From Clostridiaceae bacterium HFYG-1003 (GTDB lineage: Bacteria; Bacillota; Clostridia; Clostridiales; Clostridiaceae), in contig CP102060.1 of assembly GCA_024579835.1 (NCBI GenBank), forward strand, positions 2,021,558-2,085,557: DNA of 64,000 bases. The letters run 5' to 3'. The notes under the pieces are model-generated. The model was not told where the DNA came from. It made no database searches and saw only the letters and a list, made by a program, of their open reading frames with translations. Made by a program: the position numbers and the translations under genes. Below, in pieces: positions 7,435 through 61,647 of this stretch. Every line of letters starts with the position of its first letter. Within the stretch, counting starts at the first letter, position 1.

Positions 7435-8003
7435 CAGGGCAATCCGGCGTACAGCACATTTCCCGCGATGCCCAGCAGGGCACCGACAATAATCAGCTGA
7501 ATCATATCGAATCGCTTGGTCAGACGCAGACCGAAGCCAATGACGAAGGCCGCGGCCGCCACCGGATGCAGGGCTGACCATTGGACCACGCCATTTTGGA
7601 ACAGCGAGTTGCGAAACATGCTGAGGGCCGCGATGGCGATCAGTCCGACGATGCCCGGTTTGAGCCCCTTGAGCGTCCGGTCCAGGAAAGCAATCTTCCG
7701 GTCACGGAAGATGAAGTAGGCCAGAATCATCATTAGAGTAAACTGCGGCAGGACATTTCCCAGAGTAGCCACGATGGCACCGGGGATACCGGCAACTTTG
7801 GTTCCGACGAAGGTGGCCGAATTGATGGCGATGGGGCCGGGCGTCATCTGAGAGATGGAAACTAGGTCCGTCATCTCTTTCATCGAGAGCCAGCCTCTCT
7901 CCTCCACCACAAATCGCTGAATCAGGGGCAGAACAGCATAGCCGCCGCCAAAGGCAAAGGCACCGATCTGGACAAACACCAGAAATAATTCAAGCAGCAG
8001 CAT
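7434..8003 (-). CDS. chromate transporter family protein, half-size (second of pair)
   Basis: A 189-residue single-domain CHR-family protein. It has the hallmark FGGGYAVLPLIQ start and SQMTPGPIAINSATFVG loop, plus about five to six membrane segments. Short-chain CHR proteins work as heterodimeric pairs; the partner is the adjacent gene at 8004-8570, with the stop and start abutting. The physiological ion in anaerobes is uncertain and may be sulfate or another oxyanion rather than chromate. Confidence 0.85.
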   Translation of the reverse strand: MLLLELFLVFVQIGAFAFGGGYAVLPLIQRFVVEERGWLSMKEMTDLVSISQMTPGPIAINSATFVGTKVAGIPGAIVATLGNVLPQFTLMMILAYFIFRDRKIAFLDRTLKGLKPGIVGLIAIAALSMFRNSLFQNGVVQWSALHPVAAAAFVIGFGLRLTKRFDMIQLIIVGALLGIAGNVLYAGLP

Positions 8004-8570
8004 TTATCTCACCTGCCCTTCGTCCAGAATACTGAAGGTTGCCAGTCCGATCAGGGCCAGGGCCAGAATGATCAGAACAGTATGAATGTGGAATGCAAAG
8101 CTGGCCAGGAAAGCCGATACCATGAGAATCAAGGCAAACAGCCGGTGCTTTCGCATCGCCGCCTTGCCCATGTCATAGACCGTGAGAACCAGCACGGCGC
8201 TGATGACGCCGCCCATGCCCAGCAGAGCCGACTTTACCCAGAAATTTTTCGAGAAGGCTTCGTAAAAATAAAAGATGATGGTGATCAGGATCAGGCAGGG
8301 CAGCACCGAGGCAAGCAACGCCGTGACCGCTCCCTTCCAGCCCCGGAGCCGGTAGCCGGTCAGAAGAGAAGTGCTGATGGCCATGGCGCCGGGTCCGGAT
8401 TGAGCCAGAGCGACCAGACTGAGCATCTCTTCCTCGTCGATGAGGCCTTTCTTCTTGACGAATTCATCGCGAATCACGGGAACGATGGTATAGCCGCCGC
8501 CAAAGGTCACTGCGTTGATCTTAAAGAAGGTCAGAAATATTTCGTGCAAGGATATACTTTGTTTCATCAT
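8004..8570 (-). CDS. chromate transporter family protein, half-size (first of pair)
   Basis: A 188-residue CHR-family half transporter with FGGGYTIVPVIRDEFV and AQSGPGAMAISTSLLTG motifs. It pairs with the next gene, the two having opposite predicted membrane topology in characterised short-chain CHR pairs. The binding site AGGGGG lies one base before the first ATG (8570) and four before the second (8567), so 8567 may be the true start. It begins five bases after the stop of the gamma-glutamyltransferase gene. Confidence 0.85.
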   Translation of the reverse strand: MMKQSISLHEIFLTFFKINAVTFGGGYTIVPVIRDEFVKKKGLIDEEEMLSLVALAQSGPGAMAISTSLLTGYRLRGWKGAVTALLASVLPCLILITIIFYFYEAFSKNFWVKSALLGMGGVISAVLVLTVYDMGKAAMRKHRLFALILMVSAFLASFAFHIHTVLIILALALIGLATFSILDEGQVR

Positions 8571-8575
8571 GCCCC

Positions 8576-10180
8576 CTAATAGACAGCCAGGTTGCTGTCG
8601 GTTCTGGATTCGGTTCCGGCTGCGTAAACGCCGTTGTCCAGCTTCAGAATCACCTGGCCTCGTCCGAAATGGGTCCGGTCCGGTTCAATTTTGATCTCGT
8701 GGCCCCGAGCTTCCAGTTCCCGGATAATCTTGGGATCAAAGCCTTCTTCCACCAGGAAGGTTTTTTCCCGAATCCACTGCCAACGGGGCGCGTCCAGCGC
8801 CATCTGAGGATTGAGGTGGAAATCGGCCAGATTGGATACCACCTGGAAGTGACCCTGCGGCTGCATATAGGCACCCATCACGCCAAACACTCCGCAGCAG
8901 GCGCCGTCCCGGAGCAGCATGCCCGGAATGATGGTGTGATAGGTCTTTTTGCCGGGAGCCAGGCAGTTGATATGGGTCTCATCCAGTTTAAAGTCCGCGC
9001 CGCGGTTATGAAGCGCGATTCCGGTATCCTTGACCACAATGCCGCTGCCAAAGCCCATGTAGTTGGACTGAATCATCGATACCATGTTCCCGTCCTTGTC
9101 GGCGCAGGCCAGATAGACGGTTCCACCGGCAAACGGATCGTCCGGGCTGTGAAGTTCGGCCTGATCCGAGATCTGATCAAATCGCTTCCGGCCGTAAGAC
9201 TCGGCCAGCAGCGCCGCCGGATCAACGGCCATGTGGGCGGGATCGGTGACATGGTGCATGCCGTCCGCAAAAGCCATCTTCATGGCTTCAAACATGGTGT
9301 GGTAATAATCGGAGCTTCGCTCAGTCACTTCCCGATGTTTAAAGATATTCAGCGCCATCAGGGCCACGATGCCCTGGCCGCTGGGCGGCAGCTCGACCAC
9401 TTCCAGGCCGCGGTAGCTGGTCTTCAATGGGGTTACCCACTGGCTTTGGAAGGCCGCCAGATCGCTTTTTCTCAGATATCCGCCATGGGCAATGGCATCC
9501 TGTTCGATGCGGTCAGCCAGTTCTCCCTGATAGAACGCCTCCCCCATGGTGTTTCCGATCAGTTCCAGGGTTCTGGCGTGATGCGGCAGGCGCATGATTT
9601 CAAACGGTTGCGGTGCCCGGCCATTGATCGTAAAGGTGGCAAACCATTCCTCAAACTCCGGCTTGCCTTGCCAGGTTTCGCTGTATTTATCCACTGCCCT
9701 GGACCAGAGCTTGCTGGTGAGAGCGGCCACGGGGAACCCGTTGCGGGCATACTCAATGGCCGGCTGCAGGCATTCGGCCAGAGACAGCCTGCCAAAACGC
9801 CGGGACAGGCTGACCCAGCCCTGAGGCGCGCCCGGAACATTCACCGGAATCCAGCCCTGAGAGGGCATGGCACTGTGATGTTTCCGAACTTCATCCAATG
9901 AAATGGCCTGCGGAGAAGGTCCGTTGGAATTCATTCCATAGAGCTCGCCCTTCATCCAGACCAGGGCAAAATTGTCGCCGCCGATGCCGTTGGCGGTTGG
10001 TTCGACTACCGTCAGACAGGCTGCGGTTGCTATGGCTGCGTCCACGGCATTACCGCCCCGTTTCAGGGTATCCAGACCGGCCTGGGACGCCAGAGCGTTG
10101 CCAGTGGCTACTACCCCGTTGGCTGCGCCGATTGTCAGGCGCTCTGAGGGAAATGGCTGATGATTGGGATCAAAAAACAT
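8576..10180 (-). CDS. gamma-glutamyltransferase-like enzyme
   Basis: A 534-residue Ntn hydrolase of the gamma-glutamyltranspeptidase family. The proenzyme would self-cleave before the threonine in GGTVYLACADKDGNMVS, splitting it into large and small subunits; the GSGIVV and GIALHNRGADF segments of the small subunit are present. No signal peptide is visible, so it is a cytoplasmic member as in YwrD-type proteins, acting on gamma-glutamyl amides or glutathione. The start at 10180 follows GGAGG; a TTG 12 bases upstream is less likely. It is the first gene of the minus-strand run with the chromate-type transporters and the phosphoesterase. Confidence 0.88.
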   Translation of the reverse strand: MFFDPNHQPFPSERLTIGAANGVVATGNALASQAGLDTLKRGGNAVDAAIATAACLTVVEPTANGIGGDNFALVWMKGELYGMNSNGPSPQAISLDEVRKHHSAMPSQGWIPVNVPGAPQGWVSLSRRFGRLSLAECLQPAIEYARNGFPVAALTSKLWSRAVDKYSETWQGKPEFEEWFATFTINGRAPQPFEIMRLPHHARTLELIGNTMGEAFYQGELADRIEQDAIAHGGYLRKSDLAAFQSQWVTPLKTSYRGLEVVELPPSGQGIVALMALNIFKHREVTERSSDYYHTMFEAMKMAFADGMHHVTDPAHMAVDPAALLAESYGRKRFDQISDQAELHSPDDPFAGGTVYLACADKDGNMVSMIQSNYMGFGSGIVVKDTGIALHNRGADFKLDETHINCLAPGKKTYHTIIPGMLLRDGACCGVFGVMGAYMQPQGHFQVVSNLADFHLNPQMALDAPRWQWIREKTFLVEEGFDPKIIRELEARGHEIKIEPDRTHFGRGQVILKLDNGVYAAGTESRTDSNLAVY

Positions 10181-10294
10181 AGGTTCCTCCAAACAGAACC
10201 AGACCGGATCTCGGTCTGATCGCTCATGTGATCAAAAAAGTTCAGTTTGCCGATAACAGACCACCGTTCATCCGGCGGCAGTCCCAGCAAACAC

Positions 10295-10327
10295 AAGGAG
10301 TGCCGTTCCCACCGGAAGGCACTCCTT
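10295..10327 (-). terminator. terminator after the glycosyltransferase
   Basis: Stem AAGGAGTGCC (10295-10304) with GGCACTCCTT (10318-10327), 88 bases beyond the glycosyltransferase stop. It separates that unit from the gamma-glutamyltransferase operon. Confidence 0.6.
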
Positions 10328-10414
10328 CATTATAGCATTTTTACCCGGAACGCATTGCCGCATCTAGGATTTTGCACCCAACCAGGTTGTGAGTCCGCTG
10401 GAACGCTCCAGGGA

Positions 10415-11419
10415 TCAGTCTTTTCTCATGAGGGATTCATACACATCCTTGAGTTTTTGAGCTGTACGGTCCAGGCTGCGCTCGCGCACCTTCTCATAAC
10501 CGCTGTCCGTCAGATCCGGCAGGGTCTGGTACAGCATGCGGTCCAGAGTCTTCAGAAATTCGGCATTGGTCCTGCCCTTGTAGACATCGACATTCTCCCT
10601 GAGCCATTTCGAGTAAATGGGGATGTCGCGCACCAGCACCGGCACATTCAGCGCCAGGGCTTCCAACAGTGTCAGGCCTTCCGTTTCTTCGTAGGTAGGC
10701 ATGAAAAACACATCACTGCCCAGATATGCTCCTTTCAGGTCCTCGTGATCGATGTAACCCGGAAGTTTCATATTCGAAGGGATTTTTTTCAGTAGTGAGC
10801 GCATGGCCGGCGTCAGCAGGGAGGGATCGGTATGTCCCAGCCAGATGAACTGAAAGTCAGGACGCAGCCGGGCCAGCTCGATGAAATCCTGGATGCCTTT
10901 GCGTTCGATGTAATGGCCAATGCCCAGGATCACTTTGTCCTGCGGCCCGTAGCCGAAGCGTTCCCTGAATTTAGCCGCTGCCGCGGGATCCCTATGATAC
11001 TGAGCCAGGTCGATTCCATTGGAGATCGGTACGATGGGCGCCTTAATGCCGTAAACCGACAGCAGGTCCGCGGAATAATCTGTGGGGGTGATCACAACAT
11101 CGCCGGTGCTGTAGCACTGTGTAATCCACCATTGAAACACCGGTGCCAGAAGATTCGAACCCACAAAGGAATTCTCAAAGTCCTCCCGGGTGGAATGGGC
11201 ATAATAGACCACTTTTTTCCCCATCCGACGGGCGCGTTTGGCCATAAAGTAAAAATTTGGCAGAAAGGTGTTGAGCTGAACAATATCCCAGTCCTCCGCC
11301 GGATTCGTTGTATAGGGGATTCCCAGCTGTTCCAGCACCGCGGTCTGATTCTGGAAGGCACGGTATATGCCCGATTTCTTCATGACCTGAAGATTCTGGT
11401 CATACATCAGTAATTTCAT
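10415..11419 (-). CDS. GT4-family glycosyltransferase
   Basis: A 334-residue GT-B fold retaining glycosyltransferase of family 4. The C-terminal Rossmann half shows VILGIGHYIERKGIQDFIELA and the donor-binding E-x7-E segment EETEGLTLLEAL; the N-terminal half has the acceptor-side YYAHSTREDFENS loop. Proteins of this length and kind often glycosylate diacylglycerol or cell-surface carriers, but the acceptor cannot be told here. The start overlaps the stop of the upstream methyltransferase-GNAT gene (ATGA), with AAGGAG before it, so the two are translationally coupled. Confidence 0.85.
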   Translation of the reverse strand: MKLLMYDQNLQVMKKSGIYRAFQNQTAVLEQLGIPYTTNPAEDWDIVQLNTFLPNFYFMAKRARRMGKKVVYYAHSTREDFENSFVGSNLLAPVFQWWITQCYSTGDVVITPTDYSADLLSVYGIKAPIVPISNGIDLAQYHRDPAAAAKFRERFGYGPQDKVILGIGHYIERKGIQDFIELARLRPDFQFIWLGHTDPSLLTPAMRSLLKKIPSNMKLPGYIDHEDLKGAYLGSDVFFMPTYEETEGLTLLEALALNVPVLVRDIPIYSKWLRENVDVYKGRTNAEFLKTLDRMLYQTLPDLTDSGYEKVRERSLDRTAQKLKDVYESLMRKD

Positions 11420-12789
11420 TCTTTCTCCTTTTCAGCATCCAGCGGGGCTGTTGCTTCTGTCAGCTGCCAGCGGTACTGATTTTCATAGTATTGGGGCATC
11501 TCGCTGCTGATGCGGAACGATTCCGGCAGCGCGACGGTTCGGAGGTACTGTGCGCCTAGCTTCTGACAGACCCGCATTGAGGCATGATTGCGCAGTTCAT
11601 TGGAGATCGCCAGGGACTCCATGTCATGAGCTTTGGCCAACGGAATCAGAAGGCGGCAGGCCTCAGCCGCGTAGCCATGTCCGCGGTACGCGGGAAGAAT
11701 GGAATAACCGATGTTGCCGCCATAAAACAGGTTCTCGTGGTACCCAATCCGCAGATCCATGCTGCCGATGACTTCATCGCCCAGACAAATATCAAAATAA
11801 TAAGCTGGAACCCAGCCCTTATCCGGCATCGCCGGACTGACCCGTGTCAGGCGCAGGGAAAGCATGCCGGATTTCAGCTCTATCCGAATAAAATCATCGA
11901 ACCGGACGGATTTGGCGCAGAATTCCGCCAGATCAGCCGCCACTTCTGGCTCCTCCGGGTACTTGATGTCAATGGATCGATCCTGAGTGGCCTGAAACAG
12001 GAAATGATTCGTGGCTGAAACCAGGGACGAGGACTCGCAATGCGTCAGGTGCCACTGCAGGTAATTCTCATAGGCTTCTGTCCCCATGGCATTGACCGAA
12101 GGGGCCAGCAGCTCGGAAAATCCGTCACTGGCAAGGATTCGACGGATGGACAGATCACAGCTTTCGATCAGATCCTTCCCTTCTTCCAGGGTATGAAAGA
12201 CAAAGGGAAAATCCGCCACTCGCTGCCGGGCGGGATCATAGGTGGATTGAGCAAACCATTGTGGATTATGCACTGTTTCTGTCATGGGCACCATGTCATG
12301 GTTGATGAAGGCGCAGAAGATCGTTCCGTCCGGCTTAAGCACCCGTCGGGCTTCCATCACGGCGCGCAGCCGATCCCGGTGGTCAGACAGATGGTACAGC
12401 GGACCCAGCAGAAGAACTACGTCAAAGCTTTCAGCCGGAAGGCACGACAGATCCAGCGCATTGCCCTCCATCAGATGAATCGCCAGATTCGGATCGGTCA
12501 GTTCACGGAACTGTTGGATATTGCGCCGGGCAAGTTCAACCGCGGTGACTCGGATGCCCTGTCGGGCAAACTTCCGGGAATAGGCACCGGTTCCCGCTCC
12601 GATGTCCAGCAGCGCCATTCCTGGCTTCAGCACTGACTCAACTGCTCCGACCGTGGTCAGAAACTCGACCTGTCCTGCCTTGGACCGAAATCGCTCCTCT
12701 TCATGAAACAGGTCATAGATTCCGGATATCTGTTCTTTCAGATCCCCCGTCTCCTTGAGATCTTGGATATTGCCAGGCCACTTTGCCAT
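11416..12789 (-). CDS. SAM methyltransferase fused to GNAT acetyltransferase
   Basis: A 457-residue two-domain protein. Residues about 20-250 form a class I SAM-dependent methyltransferase with motif I LLDIGAGTGAYSR at 60-72, acidic strand end VTAVELA and the post-motif LLLGPLYHLSD. Residues about 275-440 form a GNAT N-acetyltransferase with the acetyl-CoA pyrophosphate loop YRGHGYAAEA near 368-377 and the NHASMRVCQKLGA helix. The frame is continuous through the junction. GAGAGGAG sets the start at 12789. The substrate is unknown. It is coupled to a GT4 glycosyltransferase, which could mean joint modification of one metabolite. Confidence 0.85.
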   Translation of the reverse strand: MAKWPGNIQDLKETGDLKEQISGIYDLFHEEERFRSKAGQVEFLTTVGAVESVLKPGMALLDIGAGTGAYSRKFARQGIRVTAVELARRNIQQFRELTDPNLAIHLMEGNALDLSCLPAESFDVVLLLGPLYHLSDHRDRLRAVMEARRVLKPDGTIFCAFINHDMVPMTETVHNPQWFAQSTYDPARQRVADFPFVFHTLEEGKDLIESCDLSIRRILASDGFSELLAPSVNAMGTEAYENYLQWHLTHCESSSLVSATNHFLFQATQDRSIDIKYPEEPEVAADLAEFCAKSVRFDDFIRIELKSGMLSLRLTRVSPAMPDKGWVPAYYFDICLGDEVIGSMDLRIGYHENLFYGGNIGYSILPAYRGHGYAAEACRLLIPLAKAHDMESLAISNELRNHASMRVCQKLGAQYLRTVALPESFRISSEMPQYYENQYRWQLTEATAPLDAEKEKE

Positions 12790-13332
12790 GTTCTTCTCCT
12801 CTCGCAGGCTGATGCCGCATGTCTCAGCCTGTCTTGCACTCATCACTATTTTACCCTACCAATCATTAAGAAATCATAAAATAAATGGGATTAGAGTGAT
12901 CCCAGGTCATTTTTACTGTTCAGTCACCTCCTCAGCCTCGCTGGCACTGACCAAATATCATAAAAGGACCTGCGGGCTTGAGCCGGAATGTCAACATGAA
13001 CTGCCGCTTAAACATCAGTTTAAGCAACCTGCGGTAGTTTTATGAAAAAATGTCCCACATCTAAATTTCAGCTGGACACGAACCGACATCGAGAAATTCC
13101 ATCCTATCCTCAGTCTTCAGAGTTGGCTGGATTGCCTGACTCCCCACGCTGGATTTATATCTTCCTCATTAGTTGATTCACATTCTGATACCAGAACCAA
13201 CCCCCCAGAGGTGATTCAGGACAATAAGATACCTTTGCATAACATATGATCTGGGACAAAAAAACCTGAAGGAGTTATGCCGACCAGGCGATAACTCCTT
13301 CAGGGATCGTATGTTCAGGATCTTAGCGGACA
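12790..13332. other. intergenic region
   Basis: No convincing gene on either strand. It holds a small hairpin (GCTTAAAC-ATCA-GTTTAAGC, 13006-13025) and, at the right end, the terminator of the truncated ABC gene. Confidence 0.4.
13265..13304 (-). terminator. terminator of truncated ABC ATPase gene
   Basis: Perfect 14-bp stem (13265-13278 with 13291-13304), then TTTTTTT on the minus strand. A strong canonical terminator kept behind a broken gene. Confidence 0.85.
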
Positions 13333-13776
13333 TTATATCTTAAAATAGGCTTCCTGCCGTTCCTCATCGAATGGCACCAGACTGTTATTCTGGATCATCA
13401 GGATGCGGTCACAAAACTGCTGTAAATACTGGTGTTGATGAGAAGTAAGAATGATCGTTCGCTTCTTATCCTTTTGTGATCGAATCAGCTTCGTTACAAC
13501 AAGATTCGTTTCATAATCGAGGGCGTTGAAGGGTTCATCCAGGAGGATTATCTGCTGGTTCTCCATCACTGCCTGGACGATCCCAAGTTTTTGCTTCATT
13601 CCGGAAGAATAGTTCTTGACCATAGTTTTATCATCCGGATCGAGCCCGATCGCCTGCATTGCTTCTCGGATCTGCACATCTGATATTTTGCTCTGGATCT
13701 GAGCCAGCATTTTCAAGTTGGTGAAGCCGTTATAGTATTCGATATAGGCTGGTTCATTCACAAACAAGCCGATATT
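13333..13776 (-). pseudogene. 5'-truncated ABC transporter ATPase
   Basis: About 147 residues corresponding to the C-terminal two-thirds of a bacitracin/lantibiotic-type ABC ATPase. The signature YSSGMKQKLGIVQA, Walker B QIILLDEPFNALD and switch histidine ILTSHQHQ are present, but the N-terminal 80 or so residues with Walker A are absent. The family-like sequence begins abruptly after a TAG at 13777-13779, and upstream the sequence turns very AT-rich without similarity. No ATG or ribosome binding site is available (only a TTG at 13767). No permease partner is adjacent. It is most likely a deletion remnant. Confidence 0.75.
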
Positions 13777-13779
13777 CTA

Positions 13780-14195
13780 AATGTAATTATGATAATAGAT
13801 ACTTTATTTTGCAAACACATTCTTTTGTGAAATTCTATTTTTTTTTGAAAACTATGTTATTCATCCGCTAATAACCGCAATAGATGACGTAAAAATTCCG
13901 CCGTGCAATCTATCCATTATCACCTTTGCAATCTATTCCCGTTTATCATTTCCATTCATCATTCCAAGTCAAAGATCCACTCATTCTGATCAGTTCTCTA
14001 TTTATTAACTGTCAGTTTACTTTTCACTCTTAAAATTTCCTTCATATAATATCGCTATTTTTTCCATATCATATTTCTAAATCGCCATTTTATCATTTTT
14101 TGTTAATTGTGTTGTTTTGTTAACAAAATATGACTATACTATTTATAGTTTGATTTATCAGACAATTGATCAACTGATGCATGAGGAGTACGACT
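13780..14195. other. AT-rich intergenic region upstream of selenium operon
   Basis: Conspicuously AT-rich compared with its surroundings. It ends with the promoter of the plus-strand selenium operon. No gene seen. Confidence 0.5.
14112..14140 (+). promoter_or_regulatory. promoter of the selenium-trafficking operon with palindrome
   Basis: A sigma-A-like promoter: TTGTTT at 14112-14117, 17-base spacer, TATACT at 14135-14140, 56 bases before the ATG. The spacer begins inside the perfect palindrome TTTTGTTAACAAAA (14115-14128), a good place for a repressor; its half-sites resemble those of Rex, but this is inference. Confidence 0.55.
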
Positions 14196-15359
14196 ATGAT
14201 CTACTTGGATAATGCCGCTACCACCCGGGTTAAGCCGCAGGCGGTTGTTGATGCTGTCTGCCAGGCATTATGTGCCATGGGCAATGCCGGACGTGGTCAG
14301 CATGAAGACTCACTGTCGGCCGATCGAGTGATTTATGAAGCACGCTGTGAAATCGCCGATTTATTTAGGGCGGCCAATCCCCGCCAGGTGGTTTTCACAA
14401 AAAACTCCACCGAAGCTTTGAATATCGCGATTCGAGGCCTGGTTAATCCGGGGGATCACATCATCACCACCTGCATGGAACACAATTCCGTGCTTCGACC
14501 TCTCTATGCTCTGGAAGATGAAGGTCTCATCACCCTCGACTTCATTGGACTCGACGAGCACGGTCGGCTGAAGATGGAACAGTTCGAATCCCTGATTCAG
14601 GATAATACCGCTTTCGTGGTGGTAAATCACGGATCAAATGTTACCGGCAACCTGGCGGATCTTGCCGCCATCGGAAAGCTGTGCAAAGAACACAGCTTAA
14701 AGCTGGTTGTTGACGCTTCTCAGACCGCCGGAGTATTCCCCATTGATATGGGCACACTGGGCATCAGCGTGCTCTGCTTTACCGGGCACAAGTCATTGCT
14801 GGGTCCGCAGGGGACCGGCGGGCTGTGCGCATCTGCGGATACGATGATCCGCCCGCTGCTGACCGGAGGCAGTGGAATCCGAAGCTTTGACCGGCATCAC
14901 CCGCCGGAAATGCCGACCCGTCTGGAGGCTGGCACACTGAACGGACATGGCCTGAGCGGCCTTTTGGCTGCTCTGCGATATATTAAACAACGCGGCATGG
15001 AACACCTGCGTGCCGAGGAGCAATCCCTGGCCCGAAAATTCTACGAGGGCATCCGAGCCATCGAAGGAATTCAGACTTATGGAGATTTTTCAACGACAGA
15101 CCGCTGCCCCATCGTCTCGCTGAACGTCAGAGATCTGGACGCCGCTCTGGTCAGCTTCCGACTGCAGGAAGACTATGGCATAGCCACCCGGCCAGGAGCG
15201 CATTGTGCGCCCTTGGTCCATGCTCATTTCGGAACCGAGGATCAGGGGATGGTTCGGTTCAGTTTTTCCAGCTTCAATACCGAAGCGGAAGTCCAAACAG
15301 CCATTGACGCCGTTCGGCAGATCGCCCGCGATTCTGCCGGATGCGTTAAGGATAAATAG
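14196..15359 (+). CDS. cysteine desulfurase family protein (EF2568-like)
   Basis: A 387-residue class V PLP aminotransferase fold. The PLP lysine is Lys199 in CFTGHKSLLG, Asp173 (VVDASQTAG) would bind the pyridine nitrogen, and the likely persulfide/perselenide Cys337 lies in RPGAHCAPLVH. It matches the cysteine desulfurase-family subgroup that accompanies selenium-dependent molybdenum hydroxylase genes rather than general IscS/SufS. GAGGAG fixes the start at 14196. It leads an operon with YedE-like, TusA-like and DUF3343 genes (spacings 17, 32 and 1 bp), implying generation and handling of labile sulfur or selenium. Confidence 0.85.
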   Translation: MIYLDNAATTRVKPQAVVDAVCQALCAMGNAGRGQHEDSLSADRVIYEARCEIADLFRAANPRQVVFTKNSTEALNIAIRGLVNPGDHIITTCMEHNSVLRPLYALEDEGLITLDFIGLDEHGRLKMEQFESLIQDNTAFVVVNHGSNVTGNLADLAAIGKLCKEHSLKLVVDASQTAGVFPIDMGTLGISVLCFTGHKSLLGPQGTGGLCASADTMIRPLLTGGSGIRSFDRHHPPEMPTRLEAGTLNGHGLSGLLAALRYIKQRGMEHLRAEEQSLARKFYEGIRAIEGIQTYGDFSTTDRCPIVSLNVRDLDAALVSFRLQEDYGIATRPGAHCAPLVHAHFGTEDQGMVRFSFSSFNTEAEVQTAIDAVRQIARDSAGCVKDK

Positions 15360-15376
15360 TAAGAGGGGGAATTTTT

Positions 15377-16471
15377 ATGGACTTTTTCAAATCAAAAAAG
15401 GGGCTGCTGGCACTGGGTGTGCTGGCAGGGCTTGGAGCAGTGCTTCTGGCCATTTATGGCAACCCGAAGAACATGGCCTTCTGTATTGCCTGCTTTATCC
15501 GTGACTCCGCGGGAGCGATGAAATTTCACAACGCCTCCATCGTTCAGTACTTCCGTCCCGAAATCGTCGGTCTGGTACTTGGAGCGTTCCTGGTATCTCT
15601 GCTGACAAAGGAATACCGTTCTACCGGCGGATCCTCACCGATGATCCGATTCCTGCTGGGCGGCATTATGATGACCGGTGCCCTGGTCTTTCTGGGTTGC
15701 CCGCTTCGCATGATTTTGCGCATGGCAGCCGGTGACATCAGTTCCTACATTGGTCTGATCGGCTTTGTGCTGGGTGTTGGCACCGGATCCCTGATGCTGA
15801 AGAAAGGGTTCAGCCTGGGTCGTTCCTACACCGTGAAAAAGGAGAACGGCTATATGCTGCCGGCTCTTCTGGTTTTCCTGTTCATTCTCAGCCTGACCAC
15901 CACGCTGTTTGTTACCAGCCAGACCGGTCCTGGCAGCATGCATGCCCCGGCTCTGCTCGCTTTAGCCGTTGGCATCGCCTTTGGCGTCATCGCTCATCGT
16001 ACCCGGATGTGCTTTGCCGGAAGCATCCGCGACATCATTCTGCTTCGTGACTTCGGACTGTTCTCGGTTGTCGGCGGAGTATTCCTTACCATGCTGATCT
16101 ACAACATCGCAACCAGCCAGTTCAAGTTCGTGGCTTACGGACCAATCGCTCATGCTCAGACCCTTTGGAATATCCTGGGCATGTACGTTGTCGGCTTTGC
16201 CGCAGTGCTGTTGGGCGGATGCCCCCTGCGTCAGCTGATTCTGGCCGGATCCGGATCATCGGATTCTGCCGTGACGGTTCTTGGTATGTTCCTTGGAGCG
16301 GCTATGGCCCACAACTTTGGCCTGGCTGCCAGCGCTGCCGCAGCCGCAACCGCTGAAAAAGCCGCCTCCGTCGGAGGCCCCGGCCCCAATGGCCAGGCCG
16401 CCATCCTGATCTGCATTGCCGCCTTGTTTGTGATTTCGTTCATTGGTCTGCGTAAAAAGGAAACAGCTTAA
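15377..16471 (+). CDS. yedE: YedE-like selenium/sulfur transport membrane protein
   Basis: A 364-residue polytopic membrane protein of the YeeE/YedE family, with about nine or ten membrane segments. Two repeats each carry the conserved cysteine motif GCPLR (LGCPLRMILR and GGCPLRQLIL), and a third conserved segment HRTRMCFAGSIRD lies between. In this family the cysteines relay thiosulfate or, in the selenium-linked subgroup, a selenium species across the membrane. The gene order cysteine desulfurase, YedE, TusA-like and DUF3343 argues for the selenium subgroup. A GGGGG-type site precedes the start. Confidence 0.85.
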   Translation: MDFFKSKKGLLALGVLAGLGAVLLAIYGNPKNMAFCIACFIRDSAGAMKFHNASIVQYFRPEIVGLVLGAFLVSLLTKEYRSTGGSSPMIRFLLGGIMMTGALVFLGCPLRMILRMAAGDISSYIGLIGFVLGVGTGSLMLKKGFSLGRSYTVKKENGYMLPALLVFLFILSLTTTLFVTSQTGPGSMHAPALLALAVGIAFGVIAHRTRMCFAGSIRDIILLRDFGLFSVVGGVFLTMLIYNIATSQFKFVAYGPIAHAQTLWNILGMYVVGFAAVLLGGCPLRQLILAGSGSSDSAVTVLGMFLGAAMAHNFGLAASAAAAATAEKAASVGGPGPNGQAAILICIAALFVISFIGLRKKETA

Positions 16472-58138: not shown

Positions 58139-58605
58139 GCCCTTCACGATCGTTCCATTAATCCAAATTTCTTTCAAGCAGCTTTAGCTCCTATACGCAG
58201 CTCCCAGCATCGTCACAGGGCAGCCTGAATATCACCGATTCAGACTGCCTTGCCATTTCCATTCCCTTTCTGTTTTTGTTTCAGTTTCTGTTTCCGTTCC
58301 GTTTTCTGTTACTGTTTCTGTTCCTGTTCCTGATCTTATCCCAATCCCTTTCCCTTTTATAATCCCTTTCCCTTTCCCTTTCCCTTTCCTTTTCCCTTTT
58401 CCTTTTCCTTTTCCTTTTCCTTTTCCTGGGGGTTACGTAGCATCTACAGTGAGAGCATCGCCAGACAATCGGCTATAATGAAAGAAGAACTATTGTTACA
58501 GGCAGCCTGGCAAAGGGGAGACCTGGCAAATCTGCTTGGCGCAATCTCTGCGCGCAGTGGCTGTCAGATGATCTGCCAGGTTGTGGAAACCAAGAGGAGA
58601 ACTTC
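58139..58605. other. intergenic region with polypyrimidine tract and leader
   Basis: Contains a GGCAG-CTGAAT/ATTCAG-CTGCC hairpin (58219-58249) that may end the LRR gene, the hexamer tract at 58254-58427, a TATAAT at about 58474-58479 that could be the -10 of the helicase promoter, and a dyad ACCTGGCA/TGCCAGGT (about 58521 and 58577) in the helicase leader. Confidence 0.5.
58254..58427. repeat. polypyrimidine hexamer tract
   Basis: Degenerate TTTCTG/TTCCTG hexamers grade into CCCTTT and then CCTTTT hexamers. The plus strand is almost entirely pyrimidine for about 170 bases. Confidence 0.85.
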
Positions 58606-61110
58606 ATGGATCAGTTTCACCTGCCATCGGATCATTTGGATGTCCTGACACATAATGGAGAGACCCTCTCCTATGTCCAGCCATACGGCTCGGACGGGGT
58701 CGTGGTCATTGACCGGGACGCGATCCTGCGGGAGCCGTTTACCTACAAAAGATACTGTCAGAAGCAGAATGAATGGATGCGCCTGTATGGCAGAGTCTAT
58801 CGCTTTCTTGAGTCGGATCAGAATCTGGCTGACTTTCGATCGGCCGGCTGCTTTCCGGATTCGGACCTCTACGATCTCTCCCGGACCCTGGATCGGGAGA
58901 GCACGCTGGCGGAGCCTACTCCGTTGGAATATCGATTCGAGGAATGCTTTATCGATGCCTTCGGAGAGGAAGCATTAAAATATCTGAAACGCGAATATGC
59001 TTTTCTGACGGATCAGGGAAATACCGTATATGTCGATTACGCGCTGTTTCGCAAGGATGGAACCTGGATTGCCATCGAAGAAAACGGCATCCGCTACCAT
59101 CACCCGCAAATCATCGGCAAGGAACGGTATCAGCACATTCTGAAAAAACAGAATGCCATTGTTGCTGCCCATGGGATTGTCTTTCGATGGGACACGGAAA
59201 GCCTGTTCCATCGGGAGAAAATCGCCGATGAGCTCCGGGAGTTTTTGGGTGATCTCGATGATTACCTGATTCAGTACTCACTGTCAGCTTCTCGCGGTTT
59301 TTCCCTGCACGAGCATCAGGCAGATCAGCTTTCTCAGCTCCAGGCCGACCGGGACGCCGGAAAACGGTCTGCTCTGGTTGTCCTGCCGACGGGCACCGGA
59401 AAAACCGTCATCGCCCTGGAAGACATGGTTCGAGTGGCCACAGCTCATGGCTCGCTCGACGTGCTGATCCTGGTGCCATCCCTCGATCTGGTGCTCCAGT
59501 GGCAGAAAGCCGCTGCCGCCTTTGAAACATTGATCGGCCGCATTCAGGTGCAGACGTACGCTGCCATAGCAAGGCAATATCACCGGGAACCGGTGAATCA
59601 ATATCACTATATCGTGGTGGATGAAGCTCATCACGGACCGGCTCCGATCCTGAAAAAAGTCATCCAGCATTATCAGCCGCTGTTCCTGCTGGGGCTGACC
59701 GCAACGGACGAACGCCTGGATGAACGGCGGCTGGAATCAGTTTTTGGGAGCTATGAGGAGAAACTGGATCTGAAGGAGGCCATTCAAAAAGGCCTGCTCT
59801 GCCAGATCCGGGCCTTCCGCCTGGAGAGCACGCTGGACCTGTCTGAAGTAAGGTTCAATGGCAGGGATTATGTTTCCTCGGATCTGGAAAAAAGAATCCG
59901 GGTCAACTCCCGAAATGAGCTCATTGCCGATGTCCTGCATACTTATTTTTATTCCAGACTTCCCGGGAAATCGGGTCTGGTGTACTGCGTCAATGTGGCT
60001 CACGCGAAAGAAATGGCGAAAATTCTTCGGCTGCGCGGATTTACCGCCGAGTCCGTGGATGGTTCCGATCCCCGGCGATACGAAAAGATTCGGCGATATA
60101 TGGAACGCCAGCTCCAGTTCCTATGCACCTGCAGCCTCCTGACCGAAGGCTGGGACGCACCGCACACCTCGGTCATCGTCATGGCTCGTCCAACCCTGTC
60201 CCGAGTACTCTATGCCCAGCAGCTGGGACGGGGCACCCGCAAGACAGAGGGCAAGGAAGCATTGTATGTCATCGATGTGGTGGACCGCTACGGAAGCTTT
60301 GGCCAGCTCAGCAACCGTCCCTGGTCAGTGAATTCCCTGCTGAATCAGCCCTGGTACGTGCCATTTGGGGATCTGGTGCCCAGATCCGATGTTGCTGGTC
60401 AGGAGCTGGTCATCCTTGGGACCACCCATGAACAGCCGGTGAAGCTGCAGCCCTACGAGCTGTTCACCATGCAGCGGCTCTATGAATCGTATCTGTCGGT
60501 GGAATCCCTGGCCCGGGAACTGTTTGTATCCACCGGAACCGTGCGAAGCTGGATCAACACCGGAGAACTGACCCCAGATGTCCATCTCCCGATGGGCCGA
60601 AGCGCGGTCGATCTGTTCCATCCGGATCAGATCGCTATAATCCGGGTGGCGAAAGGTTTGAAGGAACACACGGAAGCCACCATCGTGGAAGACTTCTGGG
60701 AGTTCCTTGCCGAGCGAAGCTACAGTTACAGCTACAAGATGGTCTTTCTGCTGGCTCTGCTGAAACAGGCAGACAGTACCGGGGATGCCGAAATTACCGG
60801 TGTACTGAGCGCCTATCGCGAGTTCTATCTCAATCGGATCAGAGAGAATAAAACCGTAGACCGCCCCGGCTCCCCCTACCATGACCCGGAGTTTCTGATG
60901 GATGACAAAGCACTGACCAACAGTCTTCTTTCAAACCCCTTTGAGAAATTCGAACGCAAGCGTTTCTTCTACTATGCGAAAGATCTCAAAAAGATCTCGA
61001 TTCACCATCGATTGTGGGAAGATCTGACTCACTACGGCGGTCTGGAGAATCTTCGCCGCCAGATGCAGGAAGATCTCATCCATTATTATGCCCCGCTCGG
61101 AGGTTACTAA
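58606..61110 (+). CDS. SF2 helicase with N-terminal nuclease-like domain and HTH
   Basis: An 834-residue multidomain protein. Residues about 110-205 resemble a PD-(D/E)xK (Vsr/DUF559-like) nuclease: Asp144 in VDYALF, then IAIEENG (Glu158/159) and the downstream ERYQHILKKQNAI helix and VFRWDTESL strand. Residues 235-565 are an SF2 helicase: PTGTGKT 261-267, DEAH 339-342, LTATD 364-368, TEGWDAP about 513-519, QQLGRGTRK 538-546. A MerR/excisionase-like helix-turn-helix follows (630-656, SVESLARELFVSTGTVRSWI), then a helical tail. The architecture suggests DNA processing, repair or phage restriction. GAGGAG precedes the ATG. Confidence 0.8.
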   Translation: MDQFHLPSDHLDVLTHNGETLSYVQPYGSDGVVVIDRDAILREPFTYKRYCQKQNEWMRLYGRVYRFLESDQNLADFRSAGCFPDSDLYDLSRTLDRESTLAEPTPLEYRFEECFIDAFGEEALKYLKREYAFLTDQGNTVYVDYALFRKDGTWIAIEENGIRYHHPQIIGKERYQHILKKQNAIVAAHGIVFRWDTESLFHREKIADELREFLGDLDDYLIQYSLSASRGFSLHEHQADQLSQLQADRDAGKRSALVVLPTGTGKTVIALEDMVRVATAHGSLDVLILVPSLDLVLQWQKAAAAFETLIGRIQVQTYAAIARQYHREPVNQYHYIVVDEAHHGPAPILKKVIQHYQPLFLLGLTATDERLDERRLESVFGSYEEKLDLKEAIQKGLLCQIRAFRLESTLDLSEVRFNGRDYVSSDLEKRIRVNSRNELIADVLHTYFYSRLPGKSGLVYCVNVAHAKEMAKILRLRGFTAESVDGSDPRRYEKIRRYMERQLQFLCTCSLLTEGWDAPHTSVIVMARPTLSRVLYAQQLGRGTRKTEGKEALYVIDVVDRYGSFGQLSNRPWSVNSLLNQPWYVPFGDLVPRSDVAGQELVILGTTHEQPVKLQPYELFTMQRLYESYLSVESLARELFVSTGTVRSWINTGELTPDVHLPMGRSAVDLFHPDQIAIIRVAKGLKEHTEATIVEDFWEFLAERSYSYSYKMVFLLALLKQADSTGDAEITGVLSAYREFYLNRIRENKTVDRPGSPYHDPEFLMDDKALTNSLLSNPFEKFERKRFFYYAKDLKKISIHHRLWEDLTHYGGLENLRRQMQEDLIHYYAPLGGY

Positions 61111-61186
61111 AGAAACCTACCTGAACATCCTTCAGGCAATCCACTCATGTCACCAGAATCAACCAAACATTCAAGGAGCTCAAGCC

Positions 61187-61579
61187 ATGAAAGAAACAAG
61201 CTGCCTCTTTTGTCAACTGGTCCAGGATCATCCCGTCCAGGAGAATGAGTACTTCTATGCCCGCTTTGACAAGTACCCGGTTACTCCGGGACATCTCCTG
61301 GTTATACCCAAACGCCATGTCGAGACCCTGTTCGAACTCAGTGAAGTGGAACGAAGCACTCTATTTCCATTCATCGAGGAATGCAAGAATCTCCTGGAAG
61401 AACAATTTTCTCCCACCGGTTTCAACTTCGGAGTGAATCAGGGCCAGGCTGCCGGACAGACCATCCCCCATCTCCATATTCATCTGATTCCCAGATATCC
61501 GGGAGATCTGCCGGATCCGGAAGGCGGAGTCCGGGGAGTGATCCCCGGAAAGAGAAAGTATCGGAGCTCACCAGAATAA
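61187..61579 (+). CDS. HIT-family nucleotide hydrolase
   Basis: A 130-residue histidine-triad protein. The catalytic HLHIHLIPR motif follows GVNQGQAAGQTIPH, and the N-terminal CLFCQLVQ start and LLVIPKRHVETLFEL segment are typical of Hint-like enzymes that hydrolyse AMP-linked phosphoramidates or dinucleoside polyphosphates. AAGGAG sets the start at 61187. It lies 76 bp after the helicase and shares its terminator, so the two are probably one transcript. Confidence 0.87.
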   Translation: MKETSCLFCQLVQDHPVQENEYFYARFDKYPVTPGHLLVIPKRHVETLFELSEVERSTLFPFIEECKNLLEEQFSPTGFNFGVNQGQAAGQTIPHLHIHLIPRYPGDLPDPEGGVRGVIPGKRKYRSSPE

Positions 61580-61599: not shown

Positions 61600-61647
61600 G
61601 AAGCGACGAGCCGGATCCTCCCATGAGAGGATCCGGCTCGTTGCTTC
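61600..61647 (+). terminator. strong terminator of the helicase/HIT unit
   Basis: 21-bp stem 61600-61620 with 61627-61647, six-base loop, then TTTTT. Confidence 0.88.

Follow-up and report, generated by a model that had tools for sequence, protein, structure and literature searches.

A candidate type-IV-like restriction helicase-nuclease with a shared C-terminal domain and a HIT partner in Clostridiaceae bacterium HFYG-1003

Introduction

The type IV restriction enzyme SauUSI (PDB 7clg) carries an N-terminal nuclease, a superfamily 2 (SF2) translocase and a C-terminal target-recognition part on one polypeptide, and according to excerpts of PMC7913695 recognition by its SRA domain activates the ATPase, whereupon the enzyme translocates and shreds the DNA between sites. 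The same layout is predicted for an 834-residue protein, here called X, encoded on the + strand at 58606..61110 of a 64,000-nucleotide stretch of Clostridiaceae bacterium HFYG-1003 (assembly GCA_024579835.1, contig CP102060.1, positions 2,021,558 to 2,085,557; this whole stretch is referred to as the window). It is followed on the same strand by a gene for a HIT hydrolase of 130 residues (61187..61579). In SauUSI the nuclease is of the PLD type and the reader an SRA domain, whereas X has a predicted Vsr/DUF559-like nuclease, a MerR-type winged helix-turn-helix, a C-terminal domain of residues 688–832 that we call CORE and, in addition, the HIT partner. No PLD or SRA family is among the Pfam matches of X. 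We lean towards the view that X and HIT together form a type-IV-like restriction or anti-invader system.

Other described systems share parts of this make-up. CORE stands N-terminally in some McrB-like ATPases encoded beside McrC, some of them with a HIT of the same subfamily, which links X to the McrBC-type systems treated in excerpts of PMC11090510. X differs from these in having neither an AAA+ domain nor an McrC partner: Pfam scans of X and six neighbours found no AAA+ McrB and no DUF2357/PDDEXK_7 McrC. A group of PLDc_2-SF2-CORE helicases (L288, L289, L302, L304 and L311) has the motor, CORE and HIT in common with X, often together with MazG, but contains PLD instead of a PD-(D/E)XK nuclease and gave no MerR-type match. 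Hna, of 845 residues, also combines an SF2 helicase with a PD-(D/E)XK nuclease; its nuclease is C-terminal, however, its helicase is DinG-like, and neither a helix-turn-helix nor a HIT protein figures in the excerpts of its description (PMC13381803). We ruled out X being an Hna, the nuclease-like domain of X lying N-terminally, ahead of a ResIII-type helicase. The CoCoNuT type III-B system, again in excerpts of PMC11090510, contains a fusion of a Vsr-like nuclease with a helicase within an McrBC-related system, but the helicase is SF1 and UPF1-like and the predicted target is RNA.

Searches of the open-access literature, including passages of PMC11090510, PMC12458937 and PMC12839542, brought up no description of the X-HIT arrangement or of CORE; subscription papers and supplements lie outside that search and may hold an earlier description. 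The unfamiliar parts are thus the reader and the HIT accessory on a type-IV-like restriction helicase-nuclease.

Domain architecture of X

The original prediction, made from the letters of the window, had described an 834-residue open reading frame at 58606–61110 with a nuclease-like region, an SF2 helicase and a helix-turn-helix, followed by a HIT frame ending at 61579. Both frames are present and all three domains reappear in our analysis; the C-terminal domain 688–832 had been overlooked.

The SF2 helicase (residues 232–562; 59299..60291, + strand) is complete, as had been proposed, with the motifs PTGTGKT, DEAH, LTAT and QQLGRGTR and Pfam matches to ResIII (E = 4.7e-24) and Helicase_C (7.6e-07). 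Its best match among solved structures is SauUSI itself (7clg, E = 4.8e-31; PMC7913695 in excerpt), and in PADLOC it matches mREase_IV (1.1e-34), both results being indicative of a type IV restriction helicase. It also matches the NCBIfam models of RadD (NF053632; 6.6e-25, 87.4 bits against an equivalog cut-off of 720) and XPB (2.6e-17, 63 bits against a cut-off of 610). Aprataxin repairs adenylated DNA ends, and these matches would suit a reading of X as a housekeeping or repair helicase-nuclease (RadD-, XPB- or Vsr-like) whose HIT partner mends such ends in the same fashion. The scores are far under the cut-offs, which argues against this reading; we consider it quite improbable and return to it below with the distribution of the family. 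RadD, XPB and the R subunit of EcoAI were all rejected as identities of X, their NCBIfam matches covering the helicase only and remaining far under the cut-offs.

Ahead of the helicase lies a likely nuclease domain of the PD-(D/E)XK type, resembling Vsr, DUF559 and MTES_1575 (residues 100–215; 58903..59250, + strand). Ten relatives align with X from about residue 100 to the C-terminal end. Among the family rows that reach the respective column Glu108 and Asp144 (36 of 36 each) and Glu158 and His165 (37 of 37 each) are invariant, in an order which we take to be that of Vsr/DUF559-type PD-(D/E)XK nucleases. Asp144 and Glu158 had been named as catalytic residues from the start; Glu159, named with them, is variable (Glu in 7/37 rows), and Glu108 and His165 complete the motif. 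When E-values up to 10 were admitted, 5 of 11 N-terminal domains matched MTES_1575 (PF18741, a PD-(D/E)XK family; best 4.7e-8) and 5 of 11 DUF559 (PF04480; best 7.1e-5). With the curated cut-offs applied to six relatives, five matched PF18741 at 1.5e-5 to 5.4e-8, all below the cut-off, and one exceeded that of DUF559 (22.3 versus 20.6 bits). A profile search of the PDB with the nuclease alignment gave no matches. The AlphaFold2 model of whole X, built from 5 sequences, is poor (predicted local distance difference test, pLDDT, 44; block means of 40–80 for residues 101–220); in this low-confidence model the region shows a helix (106–119), four strands (132–134, 140–142, 145–149 and 154–160), a second helix (172–187) and a further strand (190–196), the right order of elements for the fold. 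The N-terminal extension before this domain (residues 1–99; 58606..58902, + strand) is aligned only in the window, L023–L026 and L035 (alignment A1).

We read the C-terminus as two winged-helix-like modules, on the strength of a model of residues 613–834 alone (AlphaFold2, 7 sequences, pLDDT 89.5), which is helical with short hairpins. The first module (residues 628–687; 60487..60666, + strand) would be a MerR-type winged helix-turn-helix: Pfam MerR_1 matches residues 631–687 below its cut-off (E = 0.056), and VIA-align superimposes residues 628–687 on the MerR-family protein BrlR (5xbt) with Z = 8.0 and 2.3 Å over 58 residues at 26% identity. Model and structural alignment thus agree with the MerR-type helix-turn-helix first proposed. 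The second module is CORE (60667..61101, + strand), which gave no Pfam match in the scans made and may be of the Cdc6/ORC type. In VIA-align residues 688–829 matched archaeal Cdc6 in its C-terminal part (1fnn; Z = 10.6, 3.3 Å over 108 residues), Aeropyrum ORC2 (1w5t; 9.2) and chain A of several ORC complexes (8.1–8.5), values to be read with the program's own note that Z below about 13 can reflect a mere common arrangement in helical folds. Chain A in these complexes is presumably the winged-helix domain of ORC1. Foldseek with the C-terminal model gave no match at E ≤ 0.001, and because of this result and the warning on helical folds we regard the ORC likeness as only moderate evidence. A PDB profile search with the C-terminal alignment returned seven weak matches, the best (0.0015) to an AraR-type helix-turn-helix.

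CORE in three effector architectures

A profile of the C-terminal part of X (residues 566–834) was run at E ≤ 1e-8 against overlapping class-, order- and phylum-level genome samples and matched in 14 of 391, 25 of 225 and 32 of 398 genomes, respectively, proteins of the McrB type included. Matches of the X type (E = 1e-38 or better) came from 10 class-level, 16 order-level and 12 phylum-level genomes; the remainder were weaker and mostly of the McrB type. Neighbourhoods were inspected for all full-length-type matches and for 12 of the approximately 33 weaker or partial ones, and five more were added via HIT.

In 12 loci it is the N-terminal portion of McrB-like proteins that matches CORE (1e-9 to 1e-21). 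All five of these that were scanned contain AAA_5, two of the five MrcB_N and one a sub-threshold EVE; the partner genes encode DUF2357 plus PDDEXK_7 (McrC) in 4/4 cases scanned, and a gene of the McrC cluster adjoins the CORE gene in nine of the 12 loci. The third architecture, a PLDc_2-SF2 helicase ending in CORE, was found beside HIT genes (PLDc_2 in 5/5 scanned). Profile alignments with hhalign show CORE to be homologous across the three effector types: X versus the McrB-type N-terminal domains gave 99.9% (1.9e-34), X versus the C-termini of the PLD helicases 96.7% (3.6e-10) and McrB type versus PLD type 96.9% (1.5e-10).

CORE was also found in direct fusion with HIT: a 264-residue protein (L325:8191-8985, + strand) consists of CORE (residues 3–137) and HIT (141–258). 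Among its listed neighbours no restriction gene was recognised.

The C-terminal profile is absent from both genus mates examined, and an empty-site comparison with the two yielded nothing beyond a 201-bp match in one of them. A distribution so patchy, with 25 of 225 order-level genomes and neither genus mate positive, is hard to reconcile with the repair reading introduced above, as are the BREX and DISARM surroundings of some relatives (see below) and the division of X into two open reading frames in several genomes. The repair reading does gain from the lack of any PADLOC match around the window's X copy.

Five loci (L034, L185, L198, L203 and L206) have X apparently in two open reading frames, which suggests inactivation or assembly errors. 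In L027 an N-terminal fragment of X (7872-8288) is followed by other multi-gene reading frames (8758-16285), and X seems disrupted there.

No CORE match was obtained from plasmid sequences. A viral scan with the whole protein retained 80 of 339 relatives, mostly with helicase coverage; the nuclease domain found none and the C-terminal part two. One IMG/VR sequence (L131:3245-4633) spans X residues 112–562, that is the nuclease-like region and the helicase, without the C-terminus, and in two IMG/VR contigs (L222, L223) X lies near open reading frames read as serine recombinases. An unverified fecal scaffold deposited as 'Bacteriophage sp.' (L035, MT836124.1) encodes X at full length together with a methyltransferase partner; the DNA may be of bacterial and not of phage origin.

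A distinct HIT subfamily linked to CORE

To our knowledge the roles of HIT proteins in bacteria are mostly unclear. The HIT protein encoded after X belongs to PF01230 (3.1e-24) and has an intact triad in the motif HLHIHLI (His95, His97 and His99). In the 52 CORE-carrying loci, 40 of the X group and 12 of the McrB type, each of the 13 HIT genes directly adjoins the CORE gene and shares its strand, where 2.16 were expected, a count of 13 being reached in none of 100,000 random draws. HIT lies downstream of X in seven loci (the window, L023, L024, L030, L198, L200 and L202) and upstream of the CORE gene in six, four with X (L031, L204, L205 and L207) and two of the McrB type (L218 and L221). Mapped on a tree of 39 X sequences, the HIT label requires seven changes, of which five are forced by starred branches, and the pairing of X with HIT has therefore been made or lost repeatedly.

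That HIT might be a passenger, functionally unlinked to X, gains some credit from the fact that the X-HIT pair is shared, as one clade, by the window and the two relatives nearest to it and that 22 of the 50 subfamily members (survey below) lack a CORE neighbour. The change of side in 11 X loci (seven downstream, four upstream), the position upstream of two McrB-type genes, the repeated label changes, the CORE-HIT fusion and the absence of CORE near all 16 control HITs (below) speak against it, and of the alternatives we hold this one to be the least probable.

The 13 CORE-linked HITs are separated by a 100/100 branch from 11 HITs of the same genomes that we labelled HinT-type. On sequence grounds the X-linked HIT is a member of a subfamily distinct from the housekeeping-type HITs; the identification as a HinT-type housekeeping HIT was ruled out by the same branch. 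Compared with the PDB, the HIT profile gives HINT1/hinT lower scores than it gives entries of the HIT family, Ap4A phosphorylase and Fhit. We also ruled out that HIT is the ThsC of a Thoeris system: it matches the ThsC2 HIT model (PADLOC PDLC00441) with E = 1.3e-14, a general similarity at the level of the HIT family, but no Thoeris-like partner is among the neighbours scanned. Two HITs without the CORE label (L247 and L248) fall on the CORE-linked side of the branch. In L247 the distance from HIT to a PLD-SF2 protein without detected CORE (L287) is 49 bp; the HIT of L248 (the same as L328) has no PLD-SF2 protein as neighbour.

The subfamily was surveyed in 398 genomes at 145 bits or more, a cut-off of our own choice (the next scores were 136, 134 and 132), with a profile built from CORE-linked HITs and hence biased towards them: of the 50 places found, seven are rows of the profile and one (G611) is a near copy of a row. 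A CORE gene was within 3 kb of 27 of the 50 and fused to one (28/50). The 27 nearby CORE genes comprise six of X, six of the McrB type and 15 of the SF2-CORE type; one is on the other strand (G894) and one only a fragment (G708). Sixteen lower-scoring HITs (11 inspected with 1.5 kb of flanking sequence, five with about 9 kb) had no CORE, X, McrB, McrC, MazG or TehB-like neighbour, and the listed neighbours of the 136-bit HIT (L327), below the cut-off, include no CORE gene; G599 (134 bits) and G674:C33 (124) were left out of the neighbourhood comparison. The association of HIT with X recurs among homologues, then, in support of the original prediction, and involves a HIT subfamily of its own.

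Other small enzymes recur beside CORE genes. Within the 52 loci nine of 10 TehB-like methyltransferase genes are immediate same-strand neighbours of the CORE gene (1.6 expected). The four that were scanned are of the Methyltransf_25/11/TehB-like type and of no DNA-methyltransferase family, and the S-adenosylmethionine-dependent methyltransferase was rejected as a partner DNA methylase. MazG-like genes occupy such a neighbouring position in six of 16 cases (3.3 expected; reached in 6741 of 100,000 draws), and MazG was set aside as a weak candidate for a partner of X since this adjacency is not significant; its link is rather to HIT. MazG is beside or fused to HIT in 10 of the 15 SF2-CORE loci, and four of the 50 survey HITs are HIT-MazG fusions (G954, G731, G871 and G825). 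The HIT-MazG fusions in L306, L308, L309 and L320 are 235–250 residues long, and that of L308 follows an SF2-CORE protein. A macro domain fused to a MazG/PRA-PH-like domain is encoded 2 bp from X at L182:4590-5468 (− strand).

The recurrence of enzymes for nucleotides or small molecules beside CORE genes (HIT, the TehB-like methyltransferase, the macro-MazG fusion and NUDIX) would also suit an abortive-infection or signalling system, in which X senses damage or replication and acts through its nuclease, and HIT, as a regulator or antidote, clears a nucleotide signal or holds X in check. The intact HIT triad is compatible with such a role, and excerpts of PMC13381803 describe the helicase-nuclease Hna as inhibited by ATP and abortive. 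The partners are chemically diverse and absent from some loci, however, which would be odd for an obligate antidote, and we judge this alternative unlikely.

Genomic context and the case for restriction

Some relatives of X lie beside genes of known defence systems. The order in L205 is PglX-PglZ-BrxL-HIT-X (BREX), likewise in L207 by similarity of the reading frames, and that in L030 is X-HIT-MazG-DrmE-DrmA-DrmB (DISARM). Large candidate defence proteins near X match PDC-S37 in L202 (4.1e-186), MkoA in L204 (8.1e-55) and Helicase_II in L199 (4.4e-52), and in L024 and L189 another large SF2 protein (about 1,100 residues) is encoded near X. A type IV enzyme that complements BREX is on record in excerpts of PMC8565348. 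The homologues are thus not confined to housekeeping contexts devoid of HIT, and the defence role originally suggested agrees with these surroundings for some relatives; around the window's own copy no known defence gene was found among the ten larger genes scanned.

Several observations weigh against a restriction system in the window. Ten larger genes around X gave no PADLOC match at E ≤ 0.001. The window's own N-terminal domain matched neither MTES_1575 nor DUF559 in Pfam with E-values up to 10, and Foldseek and VIA searches with the whole model were filled by the helicase core and gave no confirmation of a nuclease fold. For the C-terminus the empty Foldseek search and the warning on Z count on the same side, as do, for HIT, the 22 of 50 survey members without a CORE gene nearby, the choice of cut-off and the origin of the profile. 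Fourteen of the 40 X-group loci have none of the genes that we labelled HIT, methyltransferase or MazG (15 if L188 is counted, whose MazG match is 475 bp away). Against a dependence on modification stand a DNA cytosine methylase (DrmMII, 1.1e-165) encoded after HIT at L311, a locus of the PLD type, and the PglX of L205; relatives of X may therefore work beside, or with, DNA methylation. The methylase of L311 and the caveat on helical folds slightly lowered our confidence in a restriction or anti-invader system, which we continue to favour.

The gene pair and its transcript

The ATG of X is preceded by AGAGGAG (58593–58599) at a spacing of 6 bp, and four full-length relatives have best-segment identities of 52–66%. 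For HIT, whose frame is open without stops and is covered by alignment A6, a start at 61088 overlapping X had been assumed; the likely start is the ATG at 61187, with a ribosome-binding site AAGGAG upstream (61173..61178, + strand), which leaves a gap of 76 bp. A pattern scan found no + strand terminator between X and HIT and an intrinsic one after HIT (61600..61647, + strand; 20-bp stem with 12 GC pairs and a T tail), and the single transcript proposed from the outset is therefore plausible. Upstream of the operon, at 58267–58427, lie polypyrimidine hexamer repeats (TTTCTG ×11 and TCCCTT ×13.8), possibly a slippage-prone or structural leader element.

The host genome (3.43 Mb, one contig) has a single copy of the X gene, two further matches of 30% and 23% identity that are restricted to helicase parts, and two HIT genes.

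Proposed function

As a restriction or anti-invader system X and HIT would work as follows. The MerR-type domain and CORE would bind and recognise foreign DNA, possibly base-modified; binding would turn on the SF2 motor, which would move along the DNA driven by ATP as in SauUSI, and the N-terminal PD-(D/E)XK (Vsr/DUF559-like) domain would cleave the DNA. HIT would hydrolyse a nucleotide arising from the attack or the infection, for example a modified or capped nucleotide. Computation establishes the domain order, the invariant residues, the homology of CORE in three effector types, the HIT subfamily with its association and the defence surroundings of some relatives; that X cleaves DNA, serves in defence and depends on modification, and what HIT acts on and does, we infer.

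CORE comes into question as a reader of modified DNA because in the McrB-like proteins and those with the SauUSI layout it occupies the position of the specificity domain. Excerpts of PMC11037411 put winged helices on record as readers of adenine methylation, so that a winged-helix reader is reasonable for X, and CORE may read a DNA modification. Pfam found no Type I or Type III modification methyltransferase and no specificity subunit among the six neighbours scanned. The neighbours scanned include no DNA methyltransferase, so that sparing the host's own DNA would be left to the reader; this absence fits a modification-dependent or otherwise self-sparing restriction.

The recurrence of CORE and HIT with other restriction machines points to a mix-and-match module of bacterial defence. 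A bolder proposal, which we make tentatively and would sooner doubt than assert, is that CORE represents a hitherto undescribed domain for reading modified or otherwise foreign DNA, which evolution has mounted on at least three DNA-destroying machines (Vsr-like nuclease with SF2 motor, PLD nuclease with SF2 motor, and McrB/McrC) and has paired time and again with a HIT and/or MazG hydrolase of their own, whose task is to destroy modified nucleotides, whether these come from the invader or are meant for it. If this is true, restriction would be coupled to sanitation of the nucleotide pool.

CORE, without a Pfam match here, with three effector architectures and with one fusion to HIT, is a testable thread through the restriction families. 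If it reads modifications, it predicts the specificity domain of the CORE-bearing McrB-like and PLD-helicase proteins; if the HIT subfamily acts on modified nucleotides, this would explain why nucleotide hydrolases travel with restriction genes. HIT proteins also gain a concrete place for functional testing.

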